Below the pieces are notes generated by a model, which worked only from the letters and a program-made list of their open reading frames with translations, was not told the origin of the DNA and ran no database searches. A stretch of 64,000 bases of DNA from Sulfurospirillum sp. UCH001 (GTDB taxonomy: Bacteria > Campylobacterota > Campylobacteria > Campylobacterales > Sulfurospirillaceae). Numbering within the stretch: position 1 is the first letter of the stretch; every line of letters begins with the position of its first letter. Below, piece after piece: positions 47,252 through 51,034 of this stretch. The position numbers and the translations under genes were made by a program. Where the stretch lies: assembly GCF_001548035.1 (NCBI RefSeq), contig NZ_AP014723.1, positions 1,550,001 through 1,614,000 on the forward strand, written 5' to 3'.

Positions 47252-47293
47252 TTTTTCACCTTTAATTCTAAAGTTCAAATTGGGAAAATATGT

Positions 47294-47299
47294 TACAAT
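47294..47299 (+). promoter_or_regulatory. possible -10 box reading into the structured element
   Basis: TACAAT on the plus strand predicts a start near 47306, just before the outer stem of the element (47317). A transcript from here would carry the whole element as leader of the patB-like gene. On the other strand TACAAA (47599-47594) predicts a start near 47587, so direction is open. Confidence 0.35.
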
Positions 47300-47316
47300 C
47301 ATTACACTAAAAAACA

Positions 47317-47584
47317 AGACTTCTTTTACAACTCTTTGCATATGTGAGCGTTTAAGGTTTGGTAAAAAGCAAGAAGATGTGACAAAGGACTAGCCAAAGC
47401 TAATTCAAGGAGCATCGACACAGCTTTTTAGCAAAATTTAAACGCCCAAAGGGAAGCATGCTCTAAAGACTATCTTTAACCAATGATTTTTTCGCCTTAG
47501 CTTTGGCTAGGGCTTCAAAAATTCTTGGCTAAATCTAGCATCATTTCATGCTTCTCACACTGTAAAGAGCTGTAAAAGAAGTCT
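47317..47584. other. 268-bp structured element: unidentified ncRNA, leader or MITE-like repeat
   Basis: This fills most of the only gene-free stretch over 300 bases (47252-47598). AGACTTCTTTTACA (47317-47330) pairs exactly with 47571-47584; the stem goes on with CTCTTTGCA/TGTAAAGAG (one G-T pair) and TGTGAG/CTCACA, about 29 pairs in all. Inside, CTAGCCAAAGCTAA (47390-47403) pairs exactly with 47497-47510. The gaps between outer and inner stems are nearly equal (41 and 43 bases). GCGTTTAA (47348) / TTAAACGC (47438) would cross the inner stem as a pseudoknot, and GAGCAT/ATGCTC forms an inner hairpin. On the minus strand the outer stem is followed by TGTTTTTTAG. I found no match to tmRNA, RNase P, SRP, SAM or B12 elements. 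Confidence 0.6.
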
Positions 47585-47598
47585 AAAGGACAATTTGT

Positions 47599-49649: not shown

Positions 49650-50270
49650 ATGAGACTGTACCTATTTGCCTTATGCACATGCTTGTTTTTATTGAGCGGT
49701 TGTGCTCAAAAAGAGTTTACACAAAATGCTCCTGAAGTACCACAAGCGAAGGATGATACTCCAAAACGTCAAGAAATCATCAAAAATGCAATGAAACATC
49801 AAGGTAAAAAAGATGGAGGCGATTGTTCAGGCTTTGTCACACTTGTCAATCAAGAAAGCACTCAGCCCTACTTTACAACTGCTGAGCTGAACGGCTATTT
49901 TGAAGATGCAAGACGCTCTTTAGCCATCTATAACCTCCTTGATGACCAAAATCGTCTTTATCAAGAAAAACCTAAAGTTGGGGACTTAATCTTTTTTGCA
50001 AATACCGTAAAACGATACGCAAAAGCAAAAAAGAGTATTGACAATATCACTCATATTGGTATCATTACTAAAATTGATCCTGATGATACGGTCTATTTTA
50101 TTCACCACACAAAAGGAAAAAATTTGATTAGCCAAATGAATCTTAACTATCCGACTGTTGCAATGTATGATAATAAAGTGGTCAACTCCTATATGGAAAA
50201 ATGCCCTAAAAATGAAGGACATCAATGTTTAGCACCTGCCTATTTCAGTGCCTATGGAAAAATTAAATGA
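49650..50270 (+). CDS. NlpC/P60 lipoprotein, first tandem copy
   Basis: 206 residues with lipobox LSGC19. The NlpC/P60 catalytic Cys is in GGDCSGFVTLVN, and the later THIGIITK and YFIHHTKGKN provide the His region. It would cut peptidoglycan stem peptides in the periplasm. The next gene is a diverged duplicate that overlaps by 4 bases (ATGA). TGAGGAT precedes the ATG. Confidence 0.87.
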   Translation: MRLYLFALCTCLFLLSGCAQKEFTQNAPEVPQAKDDTPKRQEIIKNAMKHQGKKDGGDCSGFVTLVNQESTQPYFTTAELNGYFEDARRSLAIYNLLDDQNRLYQEKPKVGDLIFFANTVKRYAKAKKSIDNITHIGIITKIDPDDTVYFIHHTKGKNLISQMNLNYPTVAMYDNKVVNSYMEKCPKNEGHQCLAPAYFSAYGKIK

Positions 50271-51034
50271 GAATTATTTCACTTAGTTTAGCAGCGTTAT
50301 TATTATGTGGTTGTGCACCAAAAAGTGTCGAAGTTTCTCCTGCCGTTGCTGGGATGCAACAAGAGCATCTAGAACCTAAAATGTATCTTGAAGAGAGACC
50401 AACAAAAGAATTTGCACTTAAAAAAGAGCGTGAAAGTTTTGACTTACGTCCAGTTCCTGAACTCTCCAAACGTGAAGCCATTGTTGAAAATGCCATGATG
50501 TATCTAGGTAAACGTGATGGAGGCGATTGTTCAGGCTTTGTCAATCTTGTCAATTTCAAATCAGGACTTCCTTTTTATGACAATAAAGAGTTAAGCCAAA
50601 GTTATGACAATGCTCGCAAATCGCGTGCTATGTTCAATCTTATGAACAAAAAAGGCAATGCGTTTGAAGCAAGACTCCCTAACATAGGAGACCTTGTCTT
50701 TTTTGAAAATACGGAAAGACGCCCTGCTGTAAAACCGCAAAAAACAAAAGGTGGAAAAGAGAAGGCACCTGCAAAGCAGCCTGTGGTCAATGTAACTGAA
50801 AACATAACACACGTTGGTATTGTTACAAAAGTAGAGCCTGATGGAACCGTTGAATTTATCCACCATTCAAATGGAAAGAATATCTTAGATTATATGAACT
50901 TTAATTTCCCAATGCTCACTCATAAAGATGGCAAAAAAATCAACACCTATATGAAACGCTGCCCTTCTAAAGGTGGTGCTGCTCAGCCACAGTGTATGAA
51001 TATCGCTTTCTTTGTAGCATATGGAACGTTTTAA
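50267..51034 (+). CDS. NlpC/P60 lipoprotein, second tandem copy
   Basis: 255 residues with lipobox LLCGC17. The core repeats that of the upstream gene: GKRDGGDCSGFVNLVN (catalytic Cys), GDLVFFENT, THVGIVTKVEPDGTVEFIHHSNGKN. It carries a basic insertion (RRPAVKPQKTKGGKEKAPAK) between the Cys and His regions that the first copy lacks. The tail KRCPSKGG ... QCMNIAFFVAYGTF also matches the first copy (KCPKNEG ... QCLAPAYFSAYG). The pair arose by duplication. Confidence 0.87.
   Translation: MRIISLSLAALLLCGCAPKSVEVSPAVAGMQQEHLEPKMYLEERPTKEFALKKERESFDLRPVPELSKREAIVENAMMYLGKRDGGDCSGFVNLVNFKSGLPFYDNKELSQSYDNARKSRAMFNLMNKKGNAFEARLPNIGDLVFFENTERRPAVKPQKTKGGKEKAPAKQPVVNVTENITHVGIVTKVEPDGTVEFIHHSNGKNILDYMNFNFPMLTHKDGKKINTYMKRCPSKGGAAQPQCMNIAFFVAYGTF

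Follow-up and report, generated by a model that had tools for sequence, protein, structure and literature searches.

The intergenic region between the djlA-like and patB-like genes of Sulfurospirillum sp. UCH001 very probably carries a MITE-like DNA transposon, non-autonomous and present here as an old copy, which lies in the 5' leader of the latter gene, contains inverted copies of a hairpin that we call module X, and would be mobilized by a transposase supplied in trans. This copy was found in a window of 64,000 nucleotides, the whole stretch of DNA that was analyzed. An original prediction for this window, made from the sequence alone, had described an element with nested inverted repeats and offered several readings of it, from a new RNA to a mobile repeat. 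Relatives of the element show that it belongs to a mobile family and that its interior, rather than its ends, is the conserved part.

Anatomy and insertion site of the window copy

The whole insertion occupies positions 47313-47585 (about 271 bp net, with ends placed to within a few bases) and holds no ORF of at least 50 aa wholly within it. Its nested inverted repeats are real. The best inverted-repeat score is 18, compared to a maximum of 15 across 500 dinucleotide shuffles (0/500 reach 18), and the folding energies of -104 and -106 kcal/mol, one per strand, correspond to z-scores of -8.7 and -9.95 against shuffles. The outer stem pairs 47317-47340 with 47561-47584 over 24 nt at 92% complementarity and reaches 47348 and 47554 if one gap is allowed; its complementary halves are the left (47317-47348) and right (47554-47584) terminal inverted repeats, both annotated on the + strand. 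Between them lie, in this order, hairpin arm A (47348-47445, + strand), a tiny CC-AAA-GG hairpin (47446-47452) that joins the two arms, and hairpin arm B (47453-47554, - strand), a degenerate version of the same module. Alignment with relatives delimits a conserved tip in arm A, AAAGGA-CTAGCCAAAGCTAA-TTCAAGGAG, at 47384-47412 on the + strand.

The 14-bp inner repeat (47390-47403 with 47497-47510) is an exact match as predicted, but it does not form a stem of its own: its left half (47390-47403) is the tip hairpin of arm A, and its right half (47497-47510) forms the tip of the separate arm B. The repeat results from arm B having the tip of arm A in reverse complement. The pseudoknot that had been drawn between GCGTTTAA and TTAAACGC is in fact the basal pairing of arm A, enclosed by the outer stem. 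Exact inner inverted repeats of 14 bp could also mark the ends of an invertible DNA segment; however, in relatives each repeat half pairs inside its own arm and the order of the arms is constant, and we give this suggestion almost no weight.

Both flanks of the element are present in eight aligned congeners, and the insert is absent from all eight. Their gap between djlA and patB is short and has the sequence TACAATCATTACACTAAAAA(T/A)AAGGACAATTTTGATG. The insert, whose arm A reads in the same direction as the patB-like gene, separates a conserved -10-like site from the putative ribosome-binding site of that gene. On its left, TACAAT (47294-47299, + strand) is kept in all aligned congeners; since a promoter scan gave no full sigma-70 match, its assignment to the patB-like promoter is putative. 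On its right, AAAGGA (47585-47590, + strand), which reads AAGGA in the congeners, would be the ribosome-binding site. The patB-like gene itself is intact and scores above the curated cut-off of TIGR04350. Further along the window, at 49650-51034, two adjacent and similar predicted lipoproteins have a common GGDCSGFV motif, which we take to be NlpC/P60-like, and probably represent a tandem duplication.

The very stable fold of both strands would be in keeping with an independent small RNA gene at this locus, whether 6S-like or new, or with a conserved patB riboswitch. The absence of the insert from all eight aligned congeners excludes a conserved leader or riboswitch of patB. Covariance-model searches of Rfam, 6S included, found no family at gathering score and only chance matches at relaxed thresholds. 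In addition, only one arm per strand is under the mismatch constraint described below. Taken together, a dedicated RNA gene or riboswitch at this position is highly improbable.

A mobile family in the Campylobacterota

The window copy is single, old and degenerate. A search for further copies, which the original prediction had recommended, gave a split outcome: sequence and covariance-model searches found no second element in the window's own genome, whereas relatives hold many copies, near-identical ones in some genomes. Reading out short BLAST matches in these relatives revealed whole elements, 265-284 bp long, with near-perfect terminal inverted repeats, and more than 30 elements share the same anatomy despite unrelated stem sequences. 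Three early BLAST matches (L013, L077 and L078) were dropped, since no palindrome was present there. With one relative element as the query, BLAST gave matches in 18 of 249 Campylobacterales genomes.

Arm A and the mini-hairpin can be aligned almost without gaps across 23 elements, and the proposed arm A pairing holds in 93.9% of alignment cells. Compensatory change, which had been named as a check, is extensive: 31 of the 38 pairs vary on both sides, none of 500 shuffles is as good, and slid controls are far off. The mini-hairpin takes the form GCCCnnnGGG in the family, and its GCCC columns are invariant in alignment A1. With a covariance model (R1), 64 of the 397 Campylobacterota genomes, representing 23 of 68 genera, were found to contain the arm. 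A second model (R2) was built without the window, and arm B sequences were used for neither. R2 finds arm A of the window at 47347-47454 on the + strand (84.6 bits, E 2e-19) and arm B at 47555-47444 on the - strand (32.5 bits, E 6e-6, window search), and R1 finds arm B at E 1.7e-4 in a whole-genome search. Because models without arm B sequences still find arm B, the two arms are homologous. In most of the Campylobacterota elements tested, R1 likewise detects both arms and places them on opposite strands.

Mobility of the family is well supported. In the single-contig genome G168, the terminal repeat occurs at many sites as pairs spaced by about 265 bp, giving at least 20 elements when those with one mismatched end are included. 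As judged by eye from flanking sequence, a 4-bp AT-rich direct repeat (such as TTAT, ATTA, TACA, ATAA, TTTA and TTAA) flanks seven of the eight copies read first in this genome, the eighth having a longer flanking direct repeat, and most copies in genome G134 are likewise flanked by 4-bp repeats (TTAA, TAAA or AAAA). These Campylobacterota duplications are AT-rich with no one fixed sequence. In older copies the duplication is partial or absent, and the window copy has no clear one; a 2-bp duplication read from such copies was abandoned, as fresher copies show 4 bp. Together with the empty sites in congeners and the many dispersed relatives, these target duplications bear out the MITE-like option among the original readings.

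One copy lies on the 395-kb plasmid NZ_CP087125.1 of Sulfurovum mangrovi (95718-95917); it was the only one found in plasmids, and none was found in viral contigs and phages. Genome G027 contains two deletion derivatives, one lacking exactly arm A (L113) and one reduced to the bare outer hairpin (L118). Unpartnered solo ends comprising 12-25 nt of one terminal repeat were seen in G027 (L110, L116 and L117) and in G168 (L254, L257 and L259), where they sit in intergenic gaps near genes; these may be remnants of decay or footprints of excision. Another locus (L263, G063:C1:744849-745221) is a 373-bp element that combines the terminal repeats of the family with a different structured interior.

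Strand signature and distribution of module X

The original prediction had read G-T pairs in the outer stem as fitting a conserved RNA. Stems selected as folded RNA or single-stranded DNA should tolerate G.T mismatches and not A.C, whereas double-stranded repeats gain both equally. Over 34 elements, which are related and share one fixed G.T pair in the tip, so that the counts do not represent independent events, the top-strand ratio of G.T to A.C is 13:13 in the outer repeat, 25:3 in arm A and 7:45 in arm B. The point is the opposite sign of the bias in the two arms, not the raw counts. The outer repeat therefore has the pattern of double-stranded DNA, and the folding constraint falls on the top strand in arm A and on the bottom strand in arm B. 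A pooled count (G.T 45 : A.C 61) had seemed to speak against any single-stranded fold and was overturned by this split; since each arm folds on a different strand, pooling was misleading. Thus, a conserved, G-T-tolerant and covarying fold does exist, but it resides in the arms, on opposite strands, and not in the strand-neutral outer stem. It follows from the opposite-strand constraint that the element consists of a terminal repeat plus one X at each end, in inverted orientation. X units are approximately 100 nt long, with the approximate consensus AGGC-N5-CGACGCAGG-hairpin-TCAAGGAG-N5'-AACG.

A search with a degenerate DNA pattern derived from the tip revealed clear X hairpins in one MAG each of Oryzomonas, Clostridia and Gemmatimonadales, with 24, 14 and 26 model matches per genome, respectively (E up to 0.1). 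Two of the five pattern matches outside the Campylobacterota were dropped, L238 because the model does not find it and L239 because its model match is only partial. In the Oryzomonas MAG, most elements are about 161 bp long and carry one X and a different terminal repeat, AGTGTCCCGTGCGGTTAG. X was present in 15 of 297 genomes sampled from the phylum of Oryzomonas, with the full paired geometry in two, and in 7 of 398 sampled from that of the Clostridia MAG. Some weak matches in these counts, those per genome included, may be due to chance. G.T also exceeds A.C outside the Campylobacterota (32 to 8). The fold of X, and not its stem sequence, recurs in several bacterial phyla within elements that have different ends.

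Elements of approximately 158-165 bp carry a single X within one long terminal hairpin (L265 and L266 in G134, L274 in the Clostridia MAG, L363, L371 and L374), and in such elements the orientation of X is free relative to the element ends. Some single-X elements outside the Campylobacterota are flanked by CTAG or TTAG-like repeats. In the Gemmatimonadales MAG G497 (L327, L329, L331 and L332), copies of X adjoin a second repeated module, GAGGAGAGACGACCTCATGGGCGGCGACCCCCCTGCGCCCA, which suggests a larger composite element.

Proposed mechanism and relation to known elements

We propose that the element entered the leader of the patB-like gene through a transposase supplied in trans, which cut and joined the terminal inverted repeats with a 4-bp staggered cut. 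Read inward, each end bears one X (arm A on the + strand at one end, arm B on the - strand at the other), and the GCCCnnnGGG hairpin lies between the two copies. X might act as a folded single strand, either as single-stranded DNA during transposition or replication or as RNA, and could be bound by a broadly conserved factor. Owing to the inverted copies, either strand, or transcription from either side, would present a properly folded X first. In its general form, the reading of X as an undescribed and widespread structured single-strand module (RNA or single-stranded DNA), carried by mobile palindromes with varied terminal repeats, constant in its own fold and loop sequences, and bound by conserved machinery, is one that we hold tentatively, at slightly less than even confidence.

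One version of this idea is that X is a folded single-stranded DNA signal at each end, recognized by the transposase or by replication proteins. Each end has a single X, on the strand that is entered from there, which is consistent with such a signal, as are the indifference of X to the direction of host transcription and its occurrence in mobile elements with different terminal repeats. However, the target duplications point to ordinary double-strand cutting, while single-stranded DNA transposons of the IS200/IS605 type leave no target duplications, and no enzyme of that type was identified. We consider this version possible, though somewhat doubtful. Alternatively, X could be a cis-acting RNA in host transcripts that renders insertions harmless through antitermination, processing or stability, with the inverted copies working in either orientation. 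The strong tolerance of G.T in each arm, on one of its strands, would fit this role, no called element lies within a gene, and the window copy is placed between the -10-like site and the patB ribosome-binding site with arm A in sense. Against it, single-X elements of three genomes were 13 sense and 23 antisense in co-directional contexts, with genes called by a simple codon model, and a cis-acting RNA appears unlikely to us. Since the single-X elements lack a sense bias, we favor a role for X in the mobility or maintenance of the element itself over a role for the host gene.

The mobilizing enzyme was sought through the ends of the element. Among the matches listed for exact or one-mismatch end patterns in G027, G168 and seven other genomes, there was no insertion sequence with the same ends, and DDE_Tnp_1 was missing from six of the eight copy-bearing genomes examined. 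IS5-type elements have target preferences that resemble CTAG and TTAG-like repeats. Insertion sequences of the IS5 superfamily are therefore possible movers with regard to the flanks of some single-X elements elsewhere, but the Campylobacterota duplications have no fixed sequence and the matches listed include no transposase with these ends.

Prokaryotic MITEs, such as Correia/NEMIS, Chunjie of Geobacter uraniireducens and QMITE, are intergenic, non-coding, multicopy sequences of less than 500 bp with terminal inverted repeats, target duplications and transcripts predicted to form stable stem-loops (PMC10969869). The element agrees with the general definition of a MITE, being short and without a transposase gene, with terminal inverted repeats, empty sites and dispersed relatives. 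It differs in that its interior is a covarying, strand-specific hairpin module common to several phyla while the terminal repeats differ, and in that no partner insertion sequence was seen among the matches listed for this family; for Chunjie, the comparison is one of described features. REPINs are inverted REP doublets (PMC3116915) and resemble the element in that two inverted copies of one hairpin unit form one small mobile palindrome. In contrast, the present family has long terminal inverted repeats, units of about 100 nt and 4-bp target duplications in relatives, while REPIN/REP-RAYT insertion is defined as occurring without target duplication. We found no description of this family in the open-access literature, which the search covered, and an earlier account may exist in subscription papers.

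Descriptions of small non-coding transposons usually centre on the ends and take the interior as filler; here the interior is the conserved part. The family is missing from Rfam despite reaching at least 20 copies in some genomes. Copy-rich genomes such as G168 and G134 make the role of X testable.
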